This document shows, in pieces, positions 9,996-24,174 of a DNA stretch of 64,000 nucleotides (within the stretch, counting starts at the first letter, position 1; each line of letters opens with the position of its first letter). Source of the stretch: Nitrosopumilus sp. (GTDB lineage: Archaea > Thermoproteota > Nitrososphaeria > Nitrososphaerales > Nitrosopumilaceae); contig NZ_JAILWC010000004.1 in assembly GCF_025699125.1 (NCBI RefSeq), positions 95,374 to 159,373 of the forward strand. Direction: 5' to 3'. The position numbers were made by a program, and so were the translations under genes. The notes beneath the pieces are model-generated. The model saw only the letters and a list, made by a program, of their open reading frames with translations. It did no database searches and was not told the DNA's origin.

Positions 9996-10070
9996 GCTCC
10001 TATAGTGTAGTCCGGTTAAGCATTTTGGCTTCTCAAGCCAAAGACTCGGGTTCAAATCCCGATGGGAGCA
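9996..10070 (+). tRNA. tRNA-Glu (anticodon CTC)
   Basis: 75-nt cloverleaf. The acceptor stem GCTCCTA pairs with TGGGAGC, the anticodon stem TTGGC/GCCAA encloses loop TTCTCAA (anticodon CTC), and the T arm is CGGGTTCAAATCCCG. The discriminator is A at 10070 and CCA is not encoded. Its last four bases, AGCA, are the start of the 14-bp target-site duplication of the adjacent casposon, so the tRNA stayed intact after insertion. Confidence 0.95.
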
Positions 10071-10080
10071 TTACATTTTT
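10067..10080 (+). repeat. 14-bp target-site duplication, left copy
   Basis: AGCATTACATTTTT, identical to 21985-21998. It spans the last four bases of tRNA-Glu plus ten downstream bases. Fourteen to fifteen bp duplications at tRNA 3' ends are characteristic of casposon integration. Confidence 0.93.
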
Positions 10081-10114
10081 GGGAATATAGACAGAGGCTT
10101 AGAAATGTCACAAA
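10081..10114 (+). repeat. casposon left terminal inverted repeat
   Basis: Begins GGGAATATAGACAGAGGC and ends in the block AGAAATGTCACAAA. The reverse complement of 21951-21984 matches it at 29 of 34 positions; the differences are position 5 and a four-base cluster at 16-20. Confidence 0.92.
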
Positions 10115-10282
10115 AACTCTCAGTTTAGAAAAAAATAGATTTGTACAATGTAAAAAGAACTTATCGATAATCAGTAAAAAGGTAAAGCCTCAAACTATGC
10201 GTAACTCACTGCTATTTTTGGTATTGACTAGAGAATGATATGGAAGTTATGAATTGTCGGGAGACAATAAAAATCGATTAAA

Positions 10283-11245
10283 TTATTTTAGTAACTTTCG
10301 ATGTTCTTCTTTACTGATTAAAACATTTGGTGTTACATCCAACTCTATGTTTTCATATGTGTCTAGAATTTTATTAACTCTAGGGATATATTTTTCAACA
10401 CGTTTTTTAATTTCTTTACAATACATTATGGTTTGATCTGCTATTTTTTGTCTGTCTTCATCACTACGCTTTGCATCCATAAAATCACTTAATGTTTGCA
10501 TTGCTGTATTTGCATGATGAATCCAATTTGCCAATACAGACATTTCCTCATTCAAGCCTTCTGTATAGATATAATTTGTAGATGTTAATTCATCAATTGC
10601 ATTTTTATTAAATCTATAAAATCCTACAAAGTCCTTAGTTATTGGGTTTTCTCCATCTATATGAATTTCAGCTACTCGTAGATTTTCAAATAGTTCTGAA
10701 AGTAAACCTGTTAATTTGTTCCTGATTTGTTTTTTCTCAAAAGTTTTCATCACAAGATCTTCAATTTTTAGAAAATCGAAAACAGGATTATCTGCTTTTT
10801 CAGGGTTTTCTTTAATTTTCTTTAATATCTTTTTGATGTTATTGTTGAACTCTATGATTTGTTTTGGGCTTTTGATAGAATATTCTACAACTCCATATAT
10901 GCTTAAATCTGAAATGAATTTTTTTGCTTTAATATCTTTGTTGGTAACAATTATTGTTCTTGTTGATAAAGCATGTCTTACACCTAATTCCCACATAACA
11001 TTTCCATTAAACCCCGTAATATCTGCCAAAACTAGATGAGCATTCTTCAAATTTTCAATAATTTCCTTAGTAAATGATCCAGTTGTTATTTCGGATCGAA
11101 TGCATCTGTAACCATATCCTGCCGATTCGATAGCAGATTTAAAAAAATGTTCATAAATCTCATTCCATTTATTAGAAGAGATTTTCATATGTGTTGAAAA
11201 AGGCATTATGACATAACAAACTTTTTTGCGAGGTTGTTGTCTCAA
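10283..11245 (-). CDS. NDT/TIR-like nucleotide-processing domain protein (casposon cargo)
   Basis: 320 residues. The N-terminal about 150 residues fit the nucleoside 2-deoxyribosyltransferase/TIR-like superfamily: an initial strand CYVIMPFS, then LVLADITGFNGNVMWELGVRHAL, in which the Glu of MWELG (about E86) is at the catalytic-Glu position of these enzymes. The remaining about 170 residues are helical (a four-helix-like region and a coiled C-terminus). Relatives either cleave N-glycosidic bonds in nucleosides/NAD or bind nucleotides, and several act in antiviral defence. As casposon cargo a defence role is possible but unproven. First gene inside the left end. Confidence 0.65.
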   Translation of the reverse strand: MRQQPRKKVCYVIMPFSTHMKISSNKWNEIYEHFFKSAIESAGYGYRCIRSEITTGSFTKEIIENLKNAHLVLADITGFNGNVMWELGVRHALSTRTIIVTNKDIKAKKFISDLSIYGVVEYSIKSPKQIIEFNNNIKKILKKIKENPEKADNPVFDFLKIEDLVMKTFEKKQIRNKLTGLLSELFENLRVAEIHIDGENPITKDFVGFYRFNKNAIDELTSTNYIYTEGLNEEMSVLANWIHHANTAMQTLSDFMDAKRSDEDRQKIADQTIMYCKEIKKRVEKYIPRVNKILDTYENIELDVTPNVLISKEEHRKLLK

Positions 11246-11315
11246 TACTCAGTTAATATGTGACAATTATTTAATCATATTTTATCTTCGTTAAGGAAAG
11301 TCATAGAAATTAACA

Positions 11316-11468
11316 CTAAATTTCCTGCTGTTTTTTTCTGAAATAGACCACATATTTTCTAACCAAATTCATTTTTCTATCTGCATTCAAAGTCGCTTTC
11401 CTGACATATTCCCTAATTTTTCCTATCTGAGAAATATTCTCTTGTAGAGGCGATGATACTTCGATCAT
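11316..11468 (-). CDS. small basic hypothetical protein (50 aa)
   Basis: Short ORF from ATG 11468 to TAG 11316. The peptide starts MIEVSSPLQENISQIGKIRE and ends with a Lys/Arg-rich helix (VRKYVVYFRKKQQEI). Helix-forming composition and the charge bias suggest it is coding, possibly a nucleic-acid binding or toxin/antitoxin-size peptide, but I recognise no family. Located in the casposon cargo region between two other minus-strand genes. Confidence 0.4.
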   Translation of the reverse strand: MIEVSSPLQENISQIGKIREYVRKATLNADRKMNLVRKYVVYFRKKQQEI

Positions 11469-11602
11469 TGATGGCTATCAAATTTATCATAATTACGTTA
11501 GACCGCACATGGAACTAGACGACAAGACCCCTGTCGATGTCTGTAAGATTAAGATTAAAGAAAAAGATAAGGGGATACGTTAATTCATAACGCGTCTAAA
11601 TT

Positions 11603-11725
11603 TTAATCATCAGTATCTGAATCATCAGAACTGTCAGAATCATCAGGTTCTGAGAAATATGATTCTTTGATTACTTTTCTAGTCTTAGGTAATTCCAAAT
11701 CAATGTCGTCATTTTCACTAGACAT
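11603..11725 (-). CDS. acidic microprotein (40 aa)
   Basis: ORF from ATG 11725 to TAA 11603. The peptide starts MSSENDDIDLELPKTRKVIK and ends in an Asp/Ser tail (PDDSDSSDDSDTDD). The tail arises from imperfect TCATCAG-type triplet repeats. It is strongly acidic and probably disordered. Its ATG lies about 50 bp from the divergent membrane-protein gene at 11777. Function unknown. Confidence 0.45.
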   Translation of the reverse strand: MSSENDDIDLELPKTRKVIKESYFSEPDDSDSSDDSDTDD

Positions 11726-11776
11726 AGTATCATAAAATATGAGACCTTTTATTTAAGAATATTATTTGATTGAATA

Positions 11777-12328
11777 TTGCCTGAAAAAGAATTTCTTGAC
11801 GAATTAAAATCTCAGTTTACTAGATTAATTACTTCTAAAGATCGACTTGATACCAAGACAAGTAATATGATAACAATGTCTGGTATGATATCGACATTAT
11901 TGTTAGGAATAGGGGCTTTTCTTCTAAAAACTGTGGATTCATCGTATTCTGGGTTTTCATGTTTATTGATAATTTTGCTGAGTGGTGTTGTATTGATGAT
12001 AACAACAGTGGTACTCAATATTTTAGCATACAAAATAAGAGACCAAACATACCCTATGGGAACTAACCCATTTTTCTTAAAAGATGGGAATCCCAACACA
12101 ACAAACATAGAGAAATTTTCCAATGCGAAAACAGATGTTTTTGATAAAAGAATGATTGAAGAATATTTGGCAAGTATCAAAAATACAGAACAACAAATAG
12201 ATGATAAAGGTAGAATATTGAAATGGTCTCAAATTACATTTCTTACAGGCATAATTACCATTCCGTTATTGATTGGAATACTCATTCATGTTTTTAGTAC
12301 AAATGGAGTGACAATTGGTACAGGATAA
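11777..12328 (+). CDS. small membrane protein, possible Pycsar-effector-like (casposon cargo)
   Basis: 183 residues starting at TTG 11777, with an AT-rich TATA-like stretch (TTTATTTAAG) about 25 bp upstream. Two adjacent transmembrane helices (about 33-52 and 58-82) follow the sequence KDRLDTKTSNMITMSG. A third helix lies near the C-terminus (about 155-175). A D-T/S-K-x-S/A motif before a double-TM unit resembles the PycTM/SLATT-type membrane effectors of nucleotide-signalling defence systems. The match is by eye and weak. No cyclase gene is next to it. Confidence 0.5.
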   Translation: MPEKEFLDELKSQFTRLITSKDRLDTKTSNMITMSGMISTLLLGIGAFLLKTVDSSYSGFSCLLIILLSGVVLMITTVVLNILAYKIRDQTYPMGTNPFFLKDGNPNTTNIEKFSNAKTDVFDKRMIEEYLASIKNTEQQIDDKGRILKWSQITFLTGIITIPLLIGILIHVFSTNGVTIGTG

Positions 12329-12356
12329 TCATGTATTCGAATTGAAGAAAAAATCG

Positions 12357-12374
12357 GGTCTGATTAATCAGACC
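12357..12374. terminator. 18-bp perfect palindrome between convergent genes
   Basis: GGTCTGATTAATCAGACC is self-complementary over all 18 bases. It sits after the stop of the membrane-protein gene (12328) and overlaps the stop codon of the convergent small ORF (12364-12459). The position suggests a bidirectional transcript end or a dimeric-protein binding site. Confidence 0.45.
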
Positions 12375-12459
12375 AAACCATAATTGTAGTGTTAATATCG
12401 TCTAGTTTGGATACTATTTCTTTCAATAGTCCAATTACCTGAGTTTGATATTCGTCCAT
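12364..12459 (-). CDS. small helical hypothetical protein (31 aa)
   Basis: ORF from ATG 12459 to TAA 12364. The peptide, starting MDEYQTQVIGLLKEIVSKLD, has a regular heptad-like hydrophobic pattern and ends in TTIMVWSD. It may be a short coiled-coil peptide. Its end overlaps the perfect palindrome at 12357-12374. Weakly supported. Confidence 0.35.
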   Translation of the reverse strand: MDEYQTQVIGLLKEIVSKLDDINTTIMVWSD

Positions 12460-12628
12460 GAATAATTTGTAATATTCAATCAATTAACTATGTTCCTAAC
12501 CCTTAACAGAGAGAAAATGTCCCATGAACTTGATACACCATTAGATGATCTCTTTAAAAACATCGTAAATTAAATGCAAGAAAGAGAAACTCAATAAATT
12601 TTTTATAAAAATTATTGTTAAATGGATC

Positions 12629-13693
12629 CTAAATCAAATTCAGTTGCATTCGTTTTTTATGTTCTAATATTGGTAGTAAAAACAACGCAAATGCAAATAT
12701 TCCCAAAACAAGAGACATCATCCAAGTTCCTAAATGTTCATACCAAATAATTGCTGAATTTTTCAGATCATCCTGTATAACAGATATCATAGCAGAAGTC
12801 ATCATGATGAAAATTGCACTTCCAATAACTATTAAAAGAATTTTGTCAATAGGAATTTCTCTAGGCTTATGATTCTCGTATTCTAAAGATGCGTACAAAT
12901 CATTCTCTTTTTTGTAAATACTTTTTTTATAAATTATATCGACATCTCCTAAATATAGATCAGCGTAATGATAGAATGATTTAGTATTAAGAAATAAAGA
13001 TCTTTTAATTCTAAATGCTTTCATTAGTGGAAGTGTGATAAAAAATGTAACACTTATTCCAACTATTATGACTAGAGGTAAAGCATAAGATATGGGAACT
13101 AATTCTAAAGGAATTACCACGGTATCATAAATCAAAGGCATTTGCAATAAACCTATAATTAAAGAACTAATTGCAATTGTTGGAATTATACTACGTTTGG
13201 CACTTGGTAATGTTTCATAATAATTTTTTATATCTGTACTTCTTTTTCTAAGTTCATCAACTTCATAGGATGATTGTTCATTAAGAGTTTGTGTGTATAT
13301 CTCTCTTAAGTAAATTTTATGAAGTTTAACTAATTGTCGACGAATATGTGTCTGAATAAAATATTTTAAAATAAATCTATATGTTTTTCGAGTGACAGTA
13401 ACTCCGCTAAGTTTAGGCTTATCGTTTTTATTTTTTAGATATTTAAAATAATTTCTTAATATTGAAATCCACAATTTAAAATCATAATAAAAAGTAAAGA
13501 TGAATCCCAGAAGAGTGAAAAACTCAATGCCTAATTTTTGTTCTTTAATTAATTTGATTGGCTCGTCTTGAAAATATTCGAATTTTTGACATTGTTTGTC
13601 ATTTTCAACACCATTTAGTACTTTATCATAAGTAAGAGTCAAGTCTTTGTCTAATTCCATAATTTTCTTTATTCGTTCTTGTTGAAGGGTCAT
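12629..13693 (-). CDS. multi-spanning membrane protein of unknown function (casposon cargo)
   Basis: 354 residues with about five hydrophobic helices: near 57-75 (FFTLLGFIFTFYY), 178-198 (IIPTIAISSLIIGLLQMPLI), 203-228 (ALPLVIIVGISVTFFITLPL), 288-310 (LLIVIGSAIFIMMTSAMI) and 325-346 (WMMSLVLGIFAFALFLLPIL). A cytoplasmic basic region lies between the first and second helices. No family recognised. It is in the same orientation as the polymerase operon, 126 bp downstream of the polymerase stop. Confidence 0.6.
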   Translation of the reverse strand: MTLQQERIKKIMELDKDLTLTYDKVLNGVENDKQCQKFEYFQDEPIKLIKEQKLGIEFFTLLGFIFTFYYDFKLWISILRNYFKYLKNKNDKPKLSGVTVTRKTYRFILKYFIQTHIRRQLVKLHKIYLREIYTQTLNEQSSYEVDELRKRSTDIKNYYETLPSAKRSIIPTIAISSLIIGLLQMPLIYDTVVIPLELVPISYALPLVIIVGISVTFFITLPLMKAFRIKRSLFLNTKSFYHYADLYLGDVDIIYKKSIYKKENDLYASLEYENHKPREIPIDKILLIVIGSAIFIMMTSAMISVIQDDLKNSAIIWYEHLGTWMMSLVLGIFAFALFLLPILEHKKRMQLNLI

Positions 13694-13819
13694 TACTTTT
13701 TCTAAATCATGATGGTTTATCGTATATTTAATGGATTTTTATCGAATCAGAAACTAGTTTTGTATATCAGTGGTATTGTTTGAAAATTATTTTACAACAA
13801 ACAATTACACAATTTGAAG

Positions 13820-16552
13820 TTAATTCTTCGAGAAATCCTTCTTGAACAATTTTTCTAATATTTTCATTCTAAGCACAATCATCTTATCGCTTTCTAGTTT
13901 CTTTTTCAACCTGTAAAACTCCCTTCTATCCAGTCCAATTTCAAGTGCATTTTCCAGAGTCAAACTAGCAATGATCTCTCGCAGTTTCTTTTGTTCATTC
14001 ACATACTCACTGTTGTCTTCTGCAAAGACGCCTCTTACCATTGAAAATTCGATATTGTTTGCCTCTTTTCCGATGTACTTGATGGAATTCTTGTCAATCT
14101 CTATGTGTTTGCGCTCTAAAACTCCGATATCCCCGTTTGATTTTGCCTCAGGATGATTGATGTAATCCTCAAAGACATGATCAAGCATTTTCCAGTATTC
14201 CTTTGAATCAAGTGAGCCTTCATGCGGATAGATCTTGCCTGTTTTATGATCAAGGAATTCCATGTATGGTACTTGGCTGTGTTTTGATGAATCGACTTTG
14301 GGAATCATAGGTATGATTGGTTCTCCAGTTTGAGGATCTTTTTGCGTAGCAGTTCCCATATTGAAAAAGTTAAACGGCTTTATCGAATCCGAGTAGGATT
14401 TTCCCTTGTTTAGTTTTGAAAATCTTTCATAGATTGGAAAAGTGCTTACTCGTAGTGTAGAAATTGCAGGTCTGTTTTTGTATTTTGAAATAATCTCGTC
14501 TTTTCTTTCTGGATGATAGTGAACTTCTAGAATGTCTTTCCACCATTGCTCATGGTCTACTCCTTCCAAATGTCCTAATCCATGTGAAGAATACTTGTAG
14601 ATTACAATCTCACCATCTTCAAATCCATAAAGGACGTATCTCTTTGCTGAAATTCCGTAAAACCAGACATTGTCTGCAAGATGTTTTTCCTTGTTTTCAT
14701 CTTCATAGTCTTCAATCTTGAACATCTCTACGTCATGCTTGTACGGGTTTAATAGTTTGAAAAAATCCTGAATCAGTTGCACATGCTTTGGCGAAATGAA
14801 AACTGCATCAGTGTCACAGTATGCCATGTATCCGTTATTCTCTAAAACAAGTGACTCGGCTGTTGCCAAGATTAGTCTGGCGCCAGATGTCAGAAAAACA
14901 CCCATTACTGGATTGAAAAAAGTACCGTTCTTCTCTATTCTCTCCACACTAGTTTCAAATGACTCATCAGAGCCATACACAGAAACGTCGTTGTTTTTGT
15001 CTGGATGCTCGATATCTTGCTGAATAAAAATTCCATAGGATGAAGAATTTGCAACTATCTTGAGATGATTCTGAATTAACTTTGAGATGGAATCATCTAA
15101 TGAGATGATGTTATTTTTTATCTCCAGTCTCTTTTCAATTATTTTCTGAATAAAATCTTCATCAGGTTTTACGATAATCCCTTCAAAGATCTCAATTTCC
15201 TTGAGATTCTCCTGTATTCCTTCTGGAGCAAAAGTGATTGATTCTAGAATCTGTGGAGTTTTTCCAGATAAGAATTTTGAGCCTATCAAGTCATGCAGTG
15301 TAATCCAAATGGCAGTGCCATCAAGGGATTTTTGATAGTTTATGCCTATATTGGTTGTATTTTGTGTGTTGTATTTTGCTCTGGCAGGCAGTATGTCGTC
15401 ATCTGGAACTACCTTGCAAATGGTTACAGATTCTCCCCAGAATTCTTTGTTTGCCACATCTTGTTTGGTTATAGTGTCAAGTAGTCTTTGAGTTTTCTTT
15501 GTGGATTTATGATGGATTATCTTTTTTGCTTTTAGGAATTTGTCCATCTGTAACAAGACGTAGATTGTAGGATACATGCTTGTAAAATCAATGTAGGATG
15601 TTTTGGTCGGAGTCTTTCTAATCATACAATCAGTTCTGCCCCCCAAATACGTCATCATGACATAACCTAACAGCTCCCTTGAAAAACTTGGGTTTTGTTT
15701 TAAGAAAGGTACTATTCCAATTTGCTCCAGATACGATTTTCCAATTGATGCCGGAGAGTACAATTCACTTTCATGCTTGCGGATATGATAAGTTATGTAT
15801 CTCTTCATTGCTTGCAAGTACAGGTCATGTGTAGCTAGAGTATCATTGATGTTGTAATCAACATATTCTTTGGAGATGACTCCGTGTTCGTCTGTTTCTA
15901 ATTTCCTATATGGAGATCCAAAGTCAATTAGAGCGTTTTTTAGATTGTACGATTCGTTTGTAAGCGAGAAAATAAACGTCTTGAGATCAACAAAGCAACC
16001 GCGATAGGTTCCAGATTTTTTCTCAGTCTCTGTTTTAGATGGAGATGCAAACTGGATGAATGCTGATTTTCCATCAAGGCTTTTAATTACAATTCTAGGA
16101 TTGCTTTTGTTCTCAGATAATTTTAATGAGAATCCGTTGTGTTGCAGTTTTGATTTTCCACAATATGTTGCAAGTCGCGACAAGTCAAAGGGGAGATTAA
16201 ATCCAACGCAAATTGCCCTTACACGATAGACATTTGGAATGAATACCTGCTCGACAAAGTCTTTCCTTGAGAGTAATTCACATTTACGCTTTGATGCAAT
16301 TTTTGTGATTTTCTCAATGTCCTGTTTTGATAAATTGTCGTCATAAAATATACAAAAATGGCGCAGTTTTCCAAACGACCATACACCGCAAGAGCCAAAG
16401 ACCAACCCCTGAAACTCATCAGATCTTGTCTCAGTGTCCAAAACTAAAACGAGGTTTTGATTTACCTCGAGTTTTAGGCGCGGTTTGTCTCTTTTTTTGC
16501 CTTTTTTCTCAGTGTAGCATCTGAAATAGAGAGGTAATCTGGTCATTGCCAT
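13820..16552 (-). CDS. polB: casposon family B DNA polymerase (protein-primed type)
   Basis: 910 residues with complete exonuclease and polymerase motifs. ExoI is VLDTET (D39, E41), ExoII GFNLPFD (N119, D123) and ExoIII YNIND (Y233, D237). The linker motif YLGGR is near 302-306. Motif A is DFTSMYP (D322), motif B K-x-x-x-N-SSYG (about 498-507) and motif C YCDTDAVF (D580, D582). The compact size, lack of an archaeal-replicase N-terminus and location with Cas1 identify it as the casposon polymerase thought to copy the excised element. The start overlaps the HNH stop by 10 bp, so HTH-HNH-PolB form one operon. Confidence 0.93.
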   Translation of the reverse strand: MAMTRLPLYFRCYTEKKGKKRDKPRLKLEVNQNLVLVLDTETRSDEFQGLVFGSCGVWSFGKLRHFCIFYDDNLSKQDIEKITKIASKRKCELLSRKDFVEQVFIPNVYRVRAICVGFNLPFDLSRLATYCGKSKLQHNGFSLKLSENKSNPRIVIKSLDGKSAFIQFASPSKTETEKKSGTYRGCFVDLKTFIFSLTNESYNLKNALIDFGSPYRKLETDEHGVISKEYVDYNINDTLATHDLYLQAMKRYITYHIRKHESELYSPASIGKSYLEQIGIVPFLKQNPSFSRELLGYVMMTYLGGRTDCMIRKTPTKTSYIDFTSMYPTIYVLLQMDKFLKAKKIIHHKSTKKTQRLLDTITKQDVANKEFWGESVTICKVVPDDDILPARAKYNTQNTTNIGINYQKSLDGTAIWITLHDLIGSKFLSGKTPQILESITFAPEGIQENLKEIEIFEGIIVKPDEDFIQKIIEKRLEIKNNIISLDDSISKLIQNHLKIVANSSSYGIFIQQDIEHPDKNNDVSVYGSDESFETSVERIEKNGTFFNPVMGVFLTSGARLILATAESLVLENNGYMAYCDTDAVFISPKHVQLIQDFFKLLNPYKHDVEMFKIEDYEDENKEKHLADNVWFYGISAKRYVLYGFEDGEIVIYKYSSHGLGHLEGVDHEQWWKDILEVHYHPERKDEIISKYKNRPAISTLRVSTFPIYERFSKLNKGKSYSDSIKPFNFFNMGTATQKDPQTGEPIIPMIPKVDSSKHSQVPYMEFLDHKTGKIYPHEGSLDSKEYWKMLDHVFEDYINHPEAKSNGDIGVLERKHIEIDKNSIKYIGKEANNIEFSMVRGVFAEDNSEYVNEQKKLREIIASLTLENALEIGLDRREFYRLKKKLESDKMIVLRMKILEKLFKKDFSKN

Positions 16553-17025
16553 CTTTCCAAAAGCACGTTTATCTTTTCATTATACGAATAGGCTAATTTT
16601 GAGTAAATACTGTTTCCTGTCTTGATTGTCTTTAATTCCAAAATGTTTTGCAATCCCAAAAGAAAAAATGCCTGTATGACAAATTCTGTCTGATTCTTTT
16701 TCAGCCATCTTTTGTCCCATGTTTTCTGTCTGTCTGATAGCCATCGGTGACAAACAAGGCATACGGTTATTGTTCGATAGTCATGCTTTCTTCCTGAGAC
16801 ATGATGAAGTTCTAAATCACAAAGATCCTCTTTTGAATTACAAATCTCGCATCTTTGTTTTTTGATTTTTGATTCACGTTTAGTTTGATGGAATAAATCA
16901 TCAATCCATTTTTGAGCACTGTAGATTTCTGATTTTGTAATATCAAGTAATTTCATAATTCTTTCATTTGAGAAAACAGATAATGGTAAAACTACATCAC
17001 TATTCAAATTCATACACATCCACAA
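16543..17025 (-). CDS. HNH endonuclease of the casposon
   Basis: 160 residues with a zinc-bound HNH core: C59-x2-C62 (RCEICN), the LELHHVSG segment (H74, H75), then C89-x2-C92-H93 (VCLVCHRW). An HNH nuclease is a standard companion of Cas1 and PolB in casposons; its precise step is not established and could be processing of replication intermediates or target-related cleavage. It overlaps the HTH gene upstream (26 bp) and the polymerase downstream (10 bp). MNLNSDVV at codon 5 is an alternative start. Confidence 0.88.
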   Translation of the reverse strand: MWMCMNLNSDVVLPLSVFSNERIMKLLDITKSEIYSAQKWIDDLFHQTKRESKIKKQRCEICNSKEDLCDLELHHVSGRKHDYRTITVCLVCHRWLSDRQKTWDKRWLKKNQTEFVIQAFFLLGLQNILELKTIKTGNSIYSKLAYSYNEKINVLLERWQ

Positions 17026-17506
17026 ATTCAGGTTCTTCTACTCTCTCTTCAACAGAAATTATTTTTTTAGGTCTAGTTTCAAAAGAGTGCAACTTTCCAT
17101 TGCTGTCTCTGATTTTCTTTTTGGAAAACTCTGATAATTTTTTCTTGTTGCCCTTTTTGAATTCCTTTACAGCGTTATGATATTTTCCAACGGTACTGGC
17201 ATGTCTTGAATCATTAATCTCGATTGAAATTTTTTTCCCTTTTTCATTAATTATCATGGAGCGTGAAATCTTGTCAAATTTCTTTGCAACCCATCTTCTG
17301 TTTATTTTTTTGAAAGCATTGGTATGATTGAGAACCATTTTTACTGAGAGTTTGTTTTGTCTTGCAATCTTTGTCAGTGACTTTTTTGTAGTACGTGCTT
17401 CTGAAACAACCTCTAGTGATCTCATTCGAAGATCCTTTTCTTCTGACTTTAGATTTTCCCAAGATTTTCTGAAAATTGGAATTTTCTTTCTTTTTGCTGT
17501 TGACAC
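17000..17506 (-). CDS. basic helix-turn-helix protein, first gene of casposon polymerase operon
   Basis: 168 residues, strongly basic in the first 130 and acidic at the end (VEERVEEPEFVDVYEFE). A probable HTH is at about 40-70 (KKSLTKIARQNKLSVKMVLNH). DNA-binding HTH proteins of this size accompany thaumarchaeal casposon polymerases; its role may be control of the operon or DNA-end binding. It begins 62 bp from the divergent wHTH-cas1 operon and shares that control region, which holds a palindrome at 17538-17549. Confidence 0.75.
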   Translation of the reverse strand: MSTAKRKKIPIFRKSWENLKSEEKDLRMRSLEVVSEARTTKKSLTKIARQNKLSVKMVLNHTNAFKKINRRWVAKKFDKISRSMIINEKGKKISIEINDSRHASTVGKYHNAVKEFKKGNKKKLSEFSKKKIRDSNGKLHSFETRPKKIISVEERVEEPEFVDVYEFE

Positions 17507-17537
17507 ATGTAATATTAAATAAAAAATACATTTATCT

Positions 17538-17549
17538 ACTCAGATGAGT
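17538..17549. promoter_or_regulatory. operator-like palindrome in divergent casposon promoter
   Basis: ACTCAGATGAGT: 5-bp arms with a 2-bp centre, extended imperfectly by CT/AG bases outside (CTACTCA...TGAGTGTAG). It is 19 bp upstream of the wHTH ATG and 31 bp from the opposite gene, so a bound protein could silence both operons. The wHTH or HTH protein is the obvious candidate. Palindrome seen; function inferred. Confidence 0.45.
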
Positions 17550-17568
17550 GTAGTAAACTGTATTCAAA

Positions 17569-18240
17569 ATGTCATATGATGCACAAAAAAGAATCAAAGA
17601 CGAAAATAGGAGAAAAATAATGTTAGAACTCAAAAACAGTCCTAAAAGATTCAAAGATTTACTAAAATCAACTAAATTCTCGCCTACTGGTCTGACTAAA
17701 ATCCTAAAAGAACTTGTGTCTGAGAACAAAATCCAGAAGACTCTACATGAAGGAAAAGAGGCTTATTCGCTTTCAAAAAAGCAGTCACGTGATTTTGATG
17801 ATCTCTTTAACGTTGCACATACCATAAACTCCATCATAGGAAAAGGTGGGAAATACTATCGATTTCATTCCGGTTTAGAAGATATTTTACAAAATCCAAA
17901 ATCATCTTTGGGGATAGAATCCAATTTGACATTAGACAAGGAATTGGATAAATTAGATCTGTTATCAAGCAAAGACATAGATGAAATTAGAAAAATTGTT
18001 CTTAAAAAAATTGTTCATAATATAAAGACACAAAAACTGAATAAAAAACAAACAGGGGAACTCGTACTGAGCTTTGTCATAGATTATCCAATGTTATTTG
18101 ATGCGTTATCTTTGACTCCAAAAAAAGTTGCAAAGGGTATTGCTAAATTTGTGCAAGAAAAATATGATAAGATACCAGAAAATGCAAAGCAAAGAAAACC
18201 AAGTAAAGAAATAATCAAATTATTGAGGAAGAAGAAATGA
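17569..18240 (+). CDS. winged-helix DNA-binding protein coupled to the casposase
   Basis: 223 residues. The first 75 form a winged helix (RRKIMLELKNSPKRFKDLLK; SPTGLTKILKELVSENKIQK). The rest is helical and Lys-rich and ends KPSKEIIKLLRKKK. Its stop overlaps the cas1 start (ATGA, 18237-18240), so the two are made together in a fixed ratio. It may regulate the element or help the casposase bind the ends. A partner wHTH next to Cas1 is usual in thaumarchaeal casposons. Confidence 0.8.
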   Translation: MSYDAQKRIKDENRRKIMLELKNSPKRFKDLLKSTKFSPTGLTKILKELVSENKIQKTLHEGKEAYSLSKKQSRDFDDLFNVAHTINSIIGKGGKYYRFHSGLEDILQNPKSSLGIESNLTLDKELDKLDLLSSKDIDEIRKIVLKKIVHNIKTQKLNKKQTGELVLSFVIDYPMLFDALSLTPKKVAKGIAKFVQEKYDKIPENAKQRKPSKEIIKLLRKKK

Positions 18241-19448
18241 ATCCTTTGTTGATTTCAGGATTTGGCACATCCATCAATGTTGACAAGCGAAAACTCATCA
18301 TTACAAACAAACTAAAAAAAGAAAAACTTGAATTCTATCCTCACAAGATTGATCATGATTCTATAATCATAGACGGGCATACTGGAAATATTTCCTTTGA
18401 GGCAATGCGTTGGACTGTAAAGCATGGAATCAATCTATCTTTGCTCAATTGGAATGGCAATCTTTTATCAGTTACACTTCCTGAGGAACCAAAATCAGGA
18501 GGATTGAAAATAAAGCAGTACCAAAAATACTTGGATGATTCATTTAGAAAAACAATTGCAACAAAGATTATCCAAACCAAAGTTGATCATTCTCTCAGTC
18601 TGTTGGAGCAACTCTCAAATTATTACGATGTGGATTATCTCAAAATAAAACAATCATTTGAAAAAGAGACACGAGGACTAGATGCAAACTCTGATAGAAT
18701 TTATTCTGACTTGATGACCTATGAGGGAAGAATAGCCCAGATTTACTTTGAGCAGATTTCTAAAATAATCAACAAAATCGTGCCTGAATTCAGGTTTAAT
18801 GTGCGTAAAAACAAGGCAATGTCTAGAAACTATAATGCATCAGATGAGGTCAATGCACTGTTCAACTATGGATATGCAATACTAGAATCAGAAATCAGAA
18901 AGTCAGTCAATGCAGTAGGGCTTGATAGTACAATTGGATTCTTGCATGAGATTACTCCGTCAAGAACCCCTTTGGTCTATGATCTGCAAGAGCTGTTCAG
19001 ATGGATAATTGACTTGTCAATAATTCAACTGTTAGAAGAAAAGAAACTCAAAAAATCAGACTTTATTGTAACTGAGAATTACAACATGAGATTACGAGAG
19101 AAAACTGCCAAATTGCTAATTGAAAAGATATCTGCAAACTTTAACACAAAGGTTCCATACAAGGGCAGAAACTATTACTATCAAAATGTGTTATTTGACA
19201 ATATTCGAAACCTTGCACATTGCATTTCTGATAAAAAGATAAAGTTTGACTTTGATGTTCCAAAACTAATCATTCAAAGAGATGATACTAGCAAACTACG
19301 GGAGAAAATCCTGTCATTGACTCCCGATGACAGAAGAAAACTTGGAATCAACAAGTCTACTTTGTGGTATATCAAGAAGAATATATCAGACGGCAAGACT
19401 GCAAAAATTTATGAAAAGATAATATACAAACTAAATTACATGAATTGA
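18237..19448 (+). CDS. cas1: casposase (Cas1 homologue of the casposon)
   Basis: 403 residues, longer than CRISPR Cas1 (about 300-330) owing to extra C-terminal DNA-binding helices. Visible catalytic residues are E163 in TYEGRIAQIYF, H237 in IGFLHE, and D249/E252 in YDLQELFRW. The N-terminal beta domain has DGHTGNISFEAMRWTVKHG. An extra C-terminal HTH (LTPDDRRKLGINKSTLWYIK) is typical of casposases. The enzyme joins element 3' ends to the target, making 14-15 bp duplications, which matches those seen here. No cas2 or repeats of CRISPR type accompany it. Confidence 0.95.
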   Translation: MNPLLISGFGTSINVDKRKLIITNKLKKEKLEFYPHKIDHDSIIIDGHTGNISFEAMRWTVKHGINLSLLNWNGNLLSVTLPEEPKSGGLKIKQYQKYLDDSFRKTIATKIIQTKVDHSLSLLEQLSNYYDVDYLKIKQSFEKETRGLDANSDRIYSDLMTYEGRIAQIYFEQISKIINKIVPEFRFNVRKNKAMSRNYNASDEVNALFNYGYAILESEIRKSVNAVGLDSTIGFLHEITPSRTPLVYDLQELFRWIIDLSIIQLLEEKKLKKSDFIVTENYNMRLREKTAKLLIEKISANFNTKVPYKGRNYYYQNVLFDNIRNLAHCISDKKIKFDFDVPKLIIQRDDTSKLREKILSLTPDDRRKLGINKSTLWYIKKNISDGKTAKIYEKIIYKLNYMN

Positions 19449-19472
19449 TTCCTGTTTGCCTCATAGTGAGAT

Positions 19473-19697
19473 ATTCATAAAATGAATTGAATGTATTCAT
19501 AAAATGAATTGAATGTATTCATAAAATGAATTGAATGTATTCATAAAATGAAAAAAAGATTTGCTAAAAATGAAAAAAAGATTTGCTAAAAATGAAAAAA
19601 AGATTTGCTAAAAATGAAAAAAAGATTTGCTAAAAATGAAAAAAAGATTTGCTAAAAATGAAAAAAAGATTTGCTAAAAATGAAAAAAAGATTTGCC
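19473..19697 (+). repeat. 22-bp tandem repeat array, two unit types (about 10 units)
   Basis: Three full copies and a partial of ATTCATAAAATGAATTGAATGT run directly into seven copies of a 22-bp unit starting AAAAATGAAAAAAAGATTTG and ending CT. The two unit types share the period and the AAATGAA core, so one probably arose from the other. There are no spacers, so this is not a CRISPR array. It starts 24 bp after the cas1 stop. Confidence 0.93.
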
Positions 19698-20516
19698 AAT
19701 AAAGAATATGTCTAAAGATTAGGTAATTTCAGGCGTGAATTTACATCATTTACTGTATGAATAAAGCAAAAAGAGATTTCGTAAAAATATGAATTACTTT
19801 ATTTAATTTGTAAAACTTTTTTTCATTTTACTGAATAAATTTACTGTTCATTATGAAACATTTGCGAATTAGTTTTCAGTTCCATTATTAATTCCATAAT
19901 AGTTCCATAATGATTTTCAGTTTTACTTTTAATTCCATTATGACAGTTTCATTTTGATATGTGATTTCATGCGTAATTATTTTGGAATTAGATAATTATT
20001 ACATAATTAGGCGTGCGATTCAATTATGAATTCAGATTATCTAGGCGTAGAAATTATTTTGTTTACTGAATAATTCATAATGGAACTGTAACAGTTTCAA
20101 AATGGTTTACAGTTTTTATTTTTAATTTAGAAAACGTTTCTGTTTCAAAAATCAGTAAAGTTTTGTAAAGTGATTTTACTATAGTAAAACCGTGAATAAA
20201 ACTCTGAAAATAGAGTAAATTTTACAGTTTTAGGCGTGAATAATTTTTGTAAAATGGATACTTTACGCGTGAAAAAACCAACTTTATCTGAATAAATTTT
20301 ACAGATAATTTAGAAAATTTTTCTAATTCCAATAATCACACTAGCAGGAATTCCAAAATTACATTCCGATATTTAGTAAAATCAAACCAATTCCATAACT
20401 CAAAATAGATTCTTCGGAATTCATATCCACATGATTCAAAACGCCAGTAAAAATTAATCTAGTCTGTTTACTTTGTTCAAACATGGTTTCATAGTGTCGT
20501 TTTATCATACAATGTT
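19698..20516. other. 819-bp AT-rich gene-free region with recurring short motifs
   Basis: No credible ORF. The motif AGGCGT followed by GAAT or similar recurs at 19731, 20009, 20043 and 20232 (all + strand), with variants at 19969 and 20265. AATTCC, GGAATT and TTTACTG also recur, and there is a perfect 16-bp palindrome TTTTACTATAGTAAAA at 20174-20189. Together with the 22-bp array this makes 1.07 kb of noncoding DNA beside cas1. It could be an iteron-like control or replication region, or eroded coding DNA. Confidence 0.55.
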
Positions 20517-20900
20517 ATGCCACCAACTGTTATTGTAATTGATGACAGCCATGCTTTAACACAGGTAGTTTCAGAGTTTCTCACACTCAATTCAATTGAT
20601 GTTTTGGCTGTAGGACAAAATGGAAATGAAGCCGTGGAACTGTACAAAAAACATTCTCCGGATTTTGTATTGATGGATTATTTAATGCCTGAATTTAATG
20701 GATTGTACGGACTTCAAAACATTCGAAAAGTAAATCCTAATGCCAAAGTTATCATGTTTACAGGTAGTGCAGATCCGGGACTCTTTGATCAATTTAGGGA
20801 ATCAGGGGTTTTTACCATATTAGAAAAACCATGTGATTTTGATAAAATCGTAAAGACGATTAACAACGCTTCAAGTAATACTGTTCAGTTGACTAGTTGA
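20517..20900 (+). CDS. CheY-like stand-alone response regulator receiver
   Basis: 127 residues, a single receiver domain. The acidic pair D9-D10 (VIDDSH), phospho-acceptor D54 (FVLMDYLMPEFNG), the Ser/Thr of MFTGSA and the Lys of EKPCDF (about 104) are all present, so it can be phosphorylated. There is no output domain and no histidine kinase nearby. It lies in the casposon between the AT-rich region and the internal end copy, so it is cargo. Partner unknown. Confidence 0.88.
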   Translation: MPPTVIVIDDSHALTQVVSEFLTLNSIDVLAVGQNGNEAVELYKKHSPDFVLMDYLMPEFNGLYGLQNIRKVNPNAKVIMFTGSADPGLFDQFRESGVFTILEKPCDFDKIVKTINNASSNTVQLTS

Positions 20901-20961
20901 GATTTATGAAGATTTTTAAAATTTCAGAAAACAAAAGCTACATTCAGACTGTCAGGGGTTG

Positions 20962-20994
20962 ATAAATGTCACAATTAATGATGAATTAAAAAAA
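20962..20994 (+). repeat. internal inverted copy of the casposon right end
   Basis: This stretch (ATAAATGTCACAATTAATGA and on) matches the reverse complement of the right end and its subterminal region (21932-21964) at 30 of 33 positions, more than the left and right ends share beyond the terminal repeat. The outer 20 bases (20942-20961) are poorly conserved. It could be the outer end of a small nested element ending at 21984. Confidence 0.75.
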
Positions 20995-21018
20995 AATAGA
21001 GTGGCATAAAAGAAAAAA

Positions 21019-21114
21019 TCATGAAATTTCTAGAGAACAAGAATCTGAACAAATACGTCGATTAAACACATCTTCATATTCTCTTCCACAATGAACACAT
21101 TTTCTAAAAGACAT
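21019..21114 (-). CDS. zinc-ribbon microprotein (31 aa)
   Basis: ORF from ATG 21114 to TGA 21019. The peptide starts MSFRKCVHCGREYEDVFNRR and continues ICSDSC. C-x2-C plus C-x3-C pairs are 14 residues apart, a short treble-clef/zinc-ribbon pattern. Tiny Cys4 proteins of this kind are frequent in Nitrososphaerota. It lies between the internal end copy and the right end of the casposon. Function unknown. Confidence 0.6.
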   Translation of the reverse strand: MSFRKCVHCGREYEDVFNRRICSDSCSLEIS

Positions 21115-21367
21115 GTTTTGTTTACACATTCATTCTATTAAAGGAGTTGAGATTTTAATAATTCAAAGTGACTAGTGATGTTGTAATACGAGAATTTTTC
21201 TTATACATGACAGATGAGTTAAATAATCTTTTGCAACGTTATTCAAGTGATCAGGACAAAAATTACTGCGTTTACAGGTACAAATGCCAATAAACTATGT
21301 CAGATCAGTTTCATGCTTTCTAATCTGTCACTTAAAACCTTATTACAAACAACAACGATATAATGTG

Positions 21368-21762
21368 ATGTCAAATTTAATATTTGAAAATAATTCCCCT
21401 TGGGAATCTACGAGTAAATACATTCTAAATTTTCCAGATATTAGATTTATTGGAGTGATAAATAATATGGGCAGTCTTGTAAAAGTAAATACAAAAAAGG
21501 AATTATTCCAATTGCAGAAATAGATCAGTACAAAATGTGTATGGAGCATGCATTAGAACTATTCATGAAAAAAGATCTTGATGACGTCTTGGGATCACTT
21601 GACTATATAGTATCAAAAAGAAAAAACATAAAGATAATCACAATTCCAGTCAACGACTACCTCGTATTAATATCTGCACAATCCAATACAAAGATTGAGC
21701 CCATTATTGATGAAATACTGAAAAAATTAAAGGATATGCAAAACGACGTTACAAGTATATGA
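21368..21762 (+). pseudogene. frameshifted DUF6659-like protein gene
   Basis: Two adjacent frames together encode one protein. The first reads MSNLIFENNSPWESTSKYIL...RFIGVINNMGSLVKVNTKK and then runs to a false stop near 21523. The second picks up as GIIPIAEIDQYKMCMEHALE through the end at 21762. One missing A in the A-run at 21493-21498 would restore 131 codons. The RFIGVINNMG and INDYLVLISA-type segments match a family with many paralogues in Nitrososphaerota (DUF6659, by memory). Either a decayed cargo gene or a sequencing indel. Confidence 0.65.
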
Positions 21763-21950
21763 TAATTTCTGAAATATGTTTGTCTAGATAATTCTAAATT
21801 ATATTCATCACGATATGCACTTACAACATTATCTATGAACTGACTCATAAATCCTGTTTTTTGGATTTTCAATAAATGGAAAAACATCAAATTGCTCATC
21901 TATGGGTATTGAGAAGAGATATCCAATCTGTTTTTTTAAATTCATCATTA

Positions 21951-21984
21951 TTTGTGACATTTCTCGGGGTCTGTCTATAATCCC
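21951..21984 (-). repeat. casposon right terminal inverted repeat
   Basis: Ends in CTGTCTATAATCCC at 21984. Its reverse complement begins GGGATTATAGACAGACCCC and contains the AGAAATGTCACAAA block. It matches the left end at 29/34 positions. Confidence 0.92.
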
Positions 21985-21998
21985 AGCATTACATTTTT
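21985..21998 (+). repeat. 14-bp target-site duplication, right copy
   Basis: AGCATTACATTTTT, identical to 10067-10080. It is shared: it is the right duplication of the first element and sits exactly at the left border of the second element. Confidence 0.93.
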
Positions 21999-22030
21999 GG
22001 GGATATAGTTAGGTCAAAAGAAATGTCACA
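21999..22030 (+). repeat. left terminal repeat of the second element
   Basis: Starts GGGGATATAG and ends AGAAATGTCACA, the two most conserved blocks of all ends here. The middle ten bases are divergent. Confidence 0.8.
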
Positions 22031-22128
22031 GTGGTGGGTTTGAAGATCTGAGATATTTTAGTCCCATTCGTATATTCTGCGATATTTATTAAAAATGGTT
22101 TTAATACTTCAAGAAAATCTCAGCAGGT

Positions 22129-23943
22129 ATGCCTTATGAAACCAAGAATATTGTAAACAACATTCTTGACAGAAAAGTGTCTAGGTTTGCAAACACAAAC
22201 TTTTTGAGACTTTTAGATTCTACATCCATGGTAGATGCATGTAGCATCATGCAAAAAAATCACAAAGACGAGGTTATTGTAATTGACAAAACAAATTCTG
22301 TAGTTGGAATAGTTACGGATCAAGATGTCCTAAAAAAAATCGGCGAAGCTCACGCAAATCCAAAAAAGACCACATTAGATGACATCATGACATTTCCTCT
22401 TGTCAGCATCAAACACAATGATACGTTACTTGATGCCCTGAAAATAATGAGGGATAAAAATTTACGAAAACTTGCAGTGACAGAAGATGATGGAACTGTA
22501 ATTGGCATAATTTACCAGAATACCATAACCAGTCTTATCCGCCAAAAGGTGGCATCTCCTTCCCCTACAAACTATTCAATCAAAGCAATACTGTGGAATC
22601 TTGGGACAGTAACTCAGTTCGCAGGAATACTGATGCTCATCCCGTCAATTGTTGCAACACTGCTCAATGAATCATTGGTTGCAACAGGGGTGTTCCTGAT
22701 GGCCACATTACTTTTGATTACGGGATTTTTCTTAAATACATACGGAGAAAAACATCCACTTACATTGCGAGGCTCAGCAGTGATGATACTTGCAAGCTTT
22801 TTCATTTTGGTGTTGCTTGGTACCATTCCATACCTGTATGTCTCACCATATGGCCAAGGGGATTTTGCAGACCTGTTTGCAAGCAGTTTTTTCTCTAGTG
22901 CATCAAGCTTTACTACCGCCGGAATAACGCTATTTGGAACACCTGAGGATTTGCCTGACAGTTTTACCTTCTTCCGAAGTTTCAGTCAGTTTGTAGGGGG
23001 AATGAGCTTCATTTACCTGATAATGACTGCGTTTTATCCTGAAAAGAAACTCATTACAATGAGGGGTTTTATCTCAGGTAACATTCCAAAACTGCGTGAA
23101 CTGTTTGCAACAATCGCAATAGTCTTTTCGATTTATGCTGTAATCATTGCATTGTTGATGTTTTATCTGGGAGAGCGAAACATTCTGGATGACTTTTCTC
23201 TTGCAATGAGTGTGCTATCTACTGGAGGATTCATGCCTGATTCTGCTATTTTAGAAACATTGACCGTACCAGAATATTTGGTATTGATGGCAGGTATGAT
23301 ACTTGGAGCGTTGCCATTTGGACTTCACTATGCATTTGTCAGAAAAAAATTCATGTCCTTCAAGCTTACAAAAGAAGTCGGAATTTATTTTGCAATACTT
23401 GGTGGTGCAATTTTACTTTTTACTGCAACAACTGATGTTTCTGAGTTGGATTCAGCATTTACTGTAATTGCCGCAAGTACCACTGCAGGCATGCAGATTA
23501 TTGATCTGACAGATATTGGCGATGTGTCTGTGAGTATTTTGTTTGTCCTGATGCTAATTGGTGGCTGTGGATTTTCAACGGCTGGTGGAATTAAGATATT
23601 CCGCCTTGAGCAAATATTCCAGTTTAGAAAATATTTCAAAAAATCAAAGTGGGAGAAAATTCCAATCCATGAGCGAAAAGAAATATGGATTGCAGTAATT
23701 TTGCTTATCTTGTTTCCAACTGCCCCTATCCCTGTGGCATATCACATAAGTAATCAGGGTTATGATTTTAACGATTCATATTTTGAGTCAGTTGGTGCGA
23801 TAACCACTGCAGGGTTAGGGACAGGAATAATTGACAATGATCTTGATGCGTTTTCAAAAATACTTGTGGGGCTGCTTATGATATTGGGTCGTCTGGAAAT
23901 AATTTTGCTTGCATACATCTTTGTGCCTAAACTTATTTCATAG
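22129..23943 (+). CDS. trkH: TrkH-type cation transporter with N-terminal CBS pair
   Basis: 604 residues. Residues about 15-145 are two CBS domains (SMVDACSIMQKNHKDEVIVI; DIMTFPLVSIKHNDTLLDAL) likely to bind adenine nucleotides and gate the channel. The remainder is a polytopic SKT-family transporter with four pore loops bearing the T-x-G filter motif: TTAGI, STGGF, TTAGM and TTAGLG. It would move K+ (or Na+) inward across the membrane. A fused CBS pair on TrkH is unusual, since TrkA/RCK subunits normally regulate it; none is encoded nearby. It is the sole gene of a TIR-bounded element, so probably mobile cargo for ion homeostasis. Confidence 0.9.
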   Translation: MPYETKNIVNNILDRKVSRFANTNFLRLLDSTSMVDACSIMQKNHKDEVIVIDKTNSVVGIVTDQDVLKKIGEAHANPKKTTLDDIMTFPLVSIKHNDTLLDALKIMRDKNLRKLAVTEDDGTVIGIIYQNTITSLIRQKVASPSPTNYSIKAILWNLGTVTQFAGILMLIPSIVATLLNESLVATGVFLMATLLLITGFFLNTYGEKHPLTLRGSAVMILASFFILVLLGTIPYLYVSPYGQGDFADLFASSFFSSASSFTTAGITLFGTPEDLPDSFTFFRSFSQFVGGMSFIYLIMTAFYPEKKLITMRGFISGNIPKLRELFATIAIVFSIYAVIIALLMFYLGERNILDDFSLAMSVLSTGGFMPDSAILETLTVPEYLVLMAGMILGALPFGLHYAFVRKKFMSFKLTKEVGIYFAILGGAILLFTATTDVSELDSAFTVIAASTTAGMQIIDLTDIGDVSVSILFVLMLIGGCGFSTAGGIKIFRLEQIFQFRKYFKKSKWEKIPIHERKEIWIAVILLILFPTAPIPVAYHISNQGYDFNDSYFESVGAITTAGLGTGIIDNDLDAFSKILVGLLMILGRLEIILLAYIFVPKLIS

Positions 23944-24096
23944 TCCTAAAAATCATAGTCAAAAGATTCCAATTGATCATAAACACATAGTAATATACAA
24001 TCTTACAGATGGTTCTTACAAAATTGTACCCATTAACATTACAGCTAAAGTCGGAATCTGTAAGTTTACCAATTCTTTTTCAAATTCGTCGTTAGT

Positions 24097-24128
24097 TGTG
24101 ACATCTCTAAGGCTCTGTCTATGTCCCC
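24097..24128 (-). repeat. right terminal repeat of the second element
   Basis: The reverse complement starts GGGGACATAGACAGAGCC and contains AGAGATGTCACA. 28/32 identical to the left end of the first element. Confidence 0.85.
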
Positions 24129-24142
24129 AGTACCATACTTTT
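24129..24142 (+). repeat. decayed outer target-site duplication (candidate)
   Basis: AGTACCATACTTTT against AGCATTACATTTTT: 9/14 identical, and all five mismatches are C/T transitions. Consistent with an old duplication from insertion of the second element, though 9/14 alone could also be chance. Confidence 0.4.
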
Positions 24143-24174
24143 TGTTTAAATAACAAAATTAAGACCAAGAATTA

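Follow-up and report, generated by a model that had tools for sequence, protein, structure and literature searches.

The analysed window is a 64-kb stretch of DNA from a 1.85-Mb genome (G000) whose gene content resembles that of Nitrosopumilaceae, with named homologues from Nitrosarchaeum and Nitrosopumilales. At the locus described here a tRNA-Glu gene is followed in turn by the 14-bp sequence AGCATTACATTTTT, an 11.9-kb element, a second AGCATTACATTTTT, a unit of 2,130 bp and a diverged version of the 14-bp sequence (AGTACCATACTTTTT), beyond which lies the chromosome. The coordinates of all features are given in Table 1.

Table 1. Features of the tRNA-Glu locus, in window coordinates.
Feature	Position	Strand	Basis
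tRNA-Glu (CTC), target gene	9996..10070	+	ARAGORN; empty sites in relatives
Leader motif TCAAATC, 8 bp before the duplicated target	10052..10058	+	Sequence; motif and spacing equal the A. boonei casposase target (PMC6614799)
Target-site duplication AGCATTACATTTTT, tRNA-side copy	10067..10080	+	Sequence
Casposon left end L1	10081..10112	+	End comparison, genome-wide pattern search
Autonomous casposon, younger neighbour	10081..21984	.	TIR 27/32 and exact 14-bp duplication
B-family DNA polymerase (PolB)	13820..16552	-	Motifs DTE, SMYP, NSSSYG, YCDTD intact
Cas1 casposase, 403 aa	18237..19448	+	Pfam; 6opm match; E/H/E motif regions and C-terminal region present
Additional right-type casposon end, inverted, within the casposon	20961..20995	+	91% over 35 nt to R1
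Casposon right end R1	21953..21984	-	End comparison
Middle target-site copy AGCATTACATTTTT	21985..21998	+	Common to casposon right side and trkH unit left side
trkH unit left end L2	21999..22030	+	End comparison, pattern search; disrupted homologue in G030
trkH, two N-terminal CBS domains, 604 aa	22129..23943	+	Pfam; purifying selection
trkH unit right end R2	24063..24128	-	32-nt repeat 24097-24128 and right-specific subterminal bases as in R1
Outer, diverged target-site copy AGTACCATACTTTTT	24129..24143	+	Sequence; comparison with relatives
Conserved chromosomal gene, 218 aa	24175..24831	+	Directly after tRNA-Glu in empty-site relatives

A casposon and an adjoining trkH unit

The larger element is a true casposon, with a Cas1, a PolB, TIRs, a 14-bp duplication and the leader spacing. 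Over its full length the Cas1 aligns with 6opm, the structure of the M. mazei casposase (E = 1e-78), and the regions of the catalytic E/H/E motif are present. The PolB gave no match in Pfam or PHROG; homologues of it are located beside Cas1 in G124, G109, G206, G207 and G222. The two copies of the duplication are exact over 14 bp and the two ends, L1 and R1, are identical at 27/32 positions. From the leader it is 8 bp to the start of the duplication at 10067, and the A. boonei casposase likewise has a target in which the duplicated 14-bp segment, at a tRNA 3' end, starts 8 bp after TCAAATC (PMC6614799). The same leader and spacing were also found to precede casposon-type left ends elsewhere in this genome and in related genomes. 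An accessory gene, a response regulator, is located at the right side of the casposon. In IMG/VR neither an exact match to the ends nor a relative of the casposon Cas1 was found. Two further features were observed within the element: 22-bp tandem repeats extending over about 240 bp (19469-19710) just 3' of cas1, and the inverted copy of R1, which lies 1 kb inside the right end and leaves a 1.03-kb segment between two right-type ends.

The adjoining unit (21999-24128) has paired, inward-facing casposon-type ends around one gene. It encodes neither Cas1 nor PolB and its only substantial gene is trkH, encoding a potassium transporter that contains a TrkH domain (PF02386, E = 4.8e-24) and two CBS domains and matches the solved TrkH structures 4j9u and 3pjz. 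A second TrkH, 49% identical, is encoded elsewhere in the genome. The spacers flanking trkH are 98 bp and 153 bp long, and no convincing vestiges of casposon genes were found in them, the right spacer being at chance level and the left one giving a single weak match to L1-side sequence. The first-pass annotation had described a casposase-less unit abutting the casposon, with a casposon-type end directly after the casposon's right duplication, an inverted end 28/32 identical to L1 closing the 2,130-bp unit, and a TrkH with CBS domains as the only gene between them. This description was borne out: the ends enclose a single cargo gene, a true casposon stands in tandem with the unit, and empty tRNA-Glu sites lack the unit. 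Absent from that annotation were the imperfect outer duplication and about 20 right-specific bases common to R1 and R2.

Identity of the ends and their divergence between species

R2 is identical to L1 at 28/32 positions, and L2 is identical to each of L1, R1 and R2 at 23/32, so that the unit's own pair of ends also reaches 23/32. The chance level was obtained from the best end matches in 100 shuffled 64-kb windows, for which the mean was about 20/32 and the highest values were 22-24. On identity alone L2 is therefore borderline against the shuffle maximum. L2 starts at the exact base after the 14-bp duplication, and it is identical at 27/32 positions to an end at the tRNA-Glu island of a relative (G223). 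When the end pattern was searched over the whole 1.85-Mb genome, allowing at most 3 mismatches, five matches were obtained, four of them at the tRNA-Glu locus and one solitary, and the reversed pattern used as control gave 0. The right-specific bases that R1 and R2 have in common lie past the inverted repeat and are absent from L1, which indicates that R2 is a right-type end and that the unit and the casposon are oriented alike. With regard to the target duplication of the trkH unit, the left copy is exact but common to the casposon, and the right copy, outside R2, is diverged (AGTACCATACTTTTT vs AGCATTACATTTTT).

The solitary match is a left-type end on contig C2 (228171-228202; L085:9972-10005) that is identical to L1 at 34/34 positions. 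TTCAAAT precedes it at the same 32-nt register; the site is not a tRNA gene, and a tRNA-Lys integrase is encoded nearby. No partner right end was found within about 28 kb of this end, and it has no sequence in common with L1 beyond the 34 bp.

Among 95 genomes of the genus, trkH was found at the tRNA-Glu place only in G000 and G030. In four relatives (G092, G204, G086 and G080) the site is empty: some 50 bp separate tRNA-Glu from the 218-aa gene, and neither trkH nor casposon-type ends are present. G109 has one intact Cas1/PolB casposon exactly at the tRNA-Glu site with its own 14-bp duplication, and larger islands or one-ended relics were found at tRNA-Glu in several other genomes. Relics with a single end, and casposon ends that have decayed, are common across the genus; a TIR/duplication finder run on the other Cas1 loci of the genus returned clear elements only in G109 (tRNA-Glu) and G074 (tRNA-Ser). 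A search for the 2,130-bp unit at other targets, as the first-pass annotation had proposed, yielded no second copy of the bounded unit in the 95 genomes, and there was no further copy among 5 loci from a genome-contig search.

Homologues of trkH at 79-80% identity are present in G223, G098, G025 and G065 in different surroundings, and none of them has casposon-type ends beside it. The trkH2 genes of G223 (C1:718195-720003) and G098 (C1:958517-960322) are 93% identical over the gene alone, compared with 84% for a vertical marker, and have unrelated neighbourhoods, which would fit a recent single-gene transfer. The opposite was seen between G000 and G223 (trkH 75%, vertical marker 86%). These contrasting identities indicate that trkH moves between lineages in general; in G000 and G030 it appears to have arrived within casposon-type ends.

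G030 belongs to a sister species whose flanking DNA is about 95% identical to that of G000. At the same locus it has trkH (98% identical at the amino acid level), a drifted R2 and an L2 broken by an insertion and substitutions. Given that the unit occupies the same place in both genomes, it predates the split of the two species. The interval from tRNA-Glu to the unit, occupied by the casposon in G000, holds in G030 a different 9-kb stretch that lacks cas1 and ends in a decayed casposon-type right end; no similarity to Cas1 or PolB was found in it. This inner element has lost its tRNA-side end, so the history of the locus in G030 can be read only in part. The trkH unit is older than the adjoining casposon of G000. 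Either this casposon came in later, on the tRNA side, or G030 lost it; later arrival is favoured given the exact casposon duplications as compared with the diverged outer copy.

The substitutions in trkH between G000 and G030 were 11, 6 and 75 at first, second and third codon positions, respectively, of 605 positions each, indicating that the gene is under purifying selection. In the ends 11 of 62 aligned positions differ, in addition to indels in L2. This divergence did not differ from that of the third positions of trkH (p = 0.23) and was far above that of the first and second positions (p = 2e-8). The ends of the trkH unit drift at the neutral rate and are not maintained. R2 differs at five sites between the two species, and at 5/5 of these one of the species has the L1 base. 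This indicates that the ancestral R2 was probably 31/32 identical to L1, which ties the unit to the end lineage of the present casposon.

A further casposase-less unit was observed elsewhere in G030 (C1:450164-452050; L223:64-1950, L240:3164-5050). It is 1.82 kb long, has 67-nt inverted ends that include a TTCAAAT leader mimic, contains three small ORFs and is nested in a 2.6-kb insertion that is missing from G000, G092 and G098.

Origin of the trkH unit

The ends, their order, the site, the common inheritance, and the constraint on trkH with none on the ends are all directly observed. They are best explained, in our judgement quite probably, by a casposase having placed a trkH-bearing unit at tRNA-Glu before G000 and G030 split from their common ancestor, the unit, casposon-ended and now casposase-less, being a fossil of which the gene is retained. 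A Cas1 casposase would have inserted the trkH unit, bounded by L2 and R2, just downstream of tRNA-Glu according to the rule that the leader TCAAATC in the tRNA T-arm is followed by 8 bp and then by the 14-bp segment that is duplicated. Since every insertion would rebuild leader and target on the tRNA side, later elements would land between the tRNA and the older elements. Later arrivals, the intact casposon in G000 and the different 9-kb cas1-less element in G030, would in this way have pushed the trkH unit outward while trkH was kept and the ends decayed. The trkH unit would have moved as a unit, although no second copy is known, and it is presumably now immobile or nearly so and retained for TrkH.

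Two origins are compatible with this explanation: the unit may have entered in trans with its cargo only, or a full casposon may have been trimmed where it stood. In the latter history, to which we give somewhat less than an even chance, a casposon that carried trkH close to the right end was inserted first, and internal deletion then stripped it of cas1, polB and its remaining content other than trkH, with no mobilisation in trans. The frequency of decayed ends and one-ended relics in the genus favours such trimming, the neighbouring casposon also has an accessory gene at its right side, and tandem casposons are known (PMC6563490). On the other hand, no recognisable casposon remnant is present in the 98 bp and 153 bp beside trkH, which slightly favours cargo-only insertion in trans.

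The claim of the first-pass annotation that the unit is mobilised in trans was not supported. For mobilisation by the resident Cas1 today one could cite the 28/32 match of R2 to L1, the intact Cas1 motifs, and the finding that synthetic TIR-flanked cargo is integrated by the A. boonei casposase in vitro and by that of M. mazei in vivo. Considering that the unit is at the same place in the sister species, that its ends evolve neutrally, that the left end is disrupted and the right end drifted in G030, and that no other copy exists in the 95 genomes, present-day activity appears highly unlikely. Somewhat less improbable, but still unlikely, is that L2 and R2 are the ends of two different former elements with a resident trkH trapped between them. 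The ends could derive from different elements given their identity of only 23/32, and one-ended relics do occur at tRNA-Glu in several genomes. However, trkH is missing from the empty sites and its homologues are in unrelated contexts, and both ends adjoin target-site copies and face inward; like the casposon, the unit has its left end towards the tRNA. That the end similarity is due to chance, or that trkH is simply syntenic at tRNA-Glu, can hardly be maintained. The 23 identical positions of L2 do lie close to the shuffle maximum of 23-24, but chance ends were ruled out by the genome-wide reversed control (0) and by the position exactly at the duplication, and an old syntenic trkH was ruled out by the empty sites, where the gene is lacking; these two outcomes also dispose of the objections that the first-pass annotation had itself raised. 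The trkH unit is filed as a natural, probably fossil casposon variant rather than as a non-autonomous element of proven mobility.

Relation to known systems and to ends across the family

In MITE-like, internally deleted non-autonomous transposons the ends are kept and the transposase is lost. The trkH unit resembles these in having ends without a transposase, but differs in being a single-copy unit with a functional, selected cargo gene instead of multi-copy. In CRISPR arrays growing by Cas1-Cas2, each new spacer is added at the leader-proximal copy, which is duplicated in the process, and the order of the spacers is therefore a record of age. The tRNA-Glu locus is similar in that new units enter leader-proximally, the target is duplicated and order equals age, and it differs in the kilobase length of the units, the lack of Cas2 and the lack of an immunity role.

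Tandem casposons are known in Methanosarcina and also, among thaumarchaeal family 1 casposons, in ef-2 of Ca. Np. adriaticus (PMC6563490). The locus is like the family 1 casposons of Thaumarchaeota (NitAR1-C1, NitNF5-C1/C2; PMC4046053, PMC6563490) in having a Cas1 and PolB core, TIRs, a target duplication and tandem insertion at one target (ef-2 for NF5); unlike these, the 21999-24128 unit is without cas1 or polB and has only trkH. The target here is tRNA-Glu, whereas published family 1 targets include ef-2, a gene for purine synthesis, and intergenic DNA.

Synthetic mini-casposons offer a closer parallel. A kanamycin cassette between TIRs was integrated in vitro by the A. boonei casposase (PMC6614799), and in M. 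mazei in vivo a synthetic mini-casposon was moved by the resident casposase and inserted in tandem on the left duplication (PMC10359463). As in these constructs, the cargo of the trkH unit lies between TIRs with no casposase inside, next to leader and target and in tandem with a resident casposon on its left duplication. The constructs were engineered and demonstrated to move; the trkH unit is natural and older than its neighbour, and its movement is deduced. It thus looks like a natural version of the laboratory mini-casposon, but with decaying ends, and inherited rather than moving. The first-pass annotation had considered the arrangement undescribed. This stands for natural cases, as no natural casposase-less casposon was described in the literature searched, with coverage incomplete for work of 2016, but not for the arrangement as such, since the M. 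mazei mini-casposon was inserted in tandem by a resident casposase (PMC10359463).

If the unit was cargo-only at insertion, casposases would be natural gene-delivery enzymes and not only self-movers, and a gap between casposons and CRISPR adaptation would be filled, namely the integration by Cas1 of DNA not encoding Cas1. The locus also shows a route for the gain and retention of an ion transporter in an ammonia oxidiser.

The signature TTCAAAT-N23-GGGRATATAG was searched in 250 genomes of the family (Nitrosopumilaceae) and was found in 34, compared with 0 for the reversed control and a chance expectation of about 0.3 in all. Together with the second small casposase-less unit in G030, this raises the possibility, which we put forward tentatively, that casposon units of kilobase length, some of them cargo-only, are assembled in Nitrosopumilaceae into CRISPR-like arrays at tRNA 3' ends, and that casposases acting in trans delivered genes such as trkH as natural mini-casposons that were fixed when their ends decayed. 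As the locus preserves, in two sister species, the order of leader-proximal insertions at a single tRNA gene, the idea of a casposon array is testable with sequenced genomes.

Several minor observations were made on these ends. At G098:C1 ~667083-667160 (L087) there is a tandem junction between two types of casposon end, in which a right end terminating in TTGTCTATACCCC is followed by 13 bp and a left end beginning with GGGATTATAGACAG, and no casposon-type Cas1 was found near it. Dispersed casposon-type left ends with a leader resembling a tRNA 3' end (loci L191-L220) reach up to 9 per genome (G204). In many of the signature copies at non-tRNA sites conservation extends as far as the distal target bases (AGCACAACGTGTAT), suggesting that the element carries the leader mimic along when it moves.
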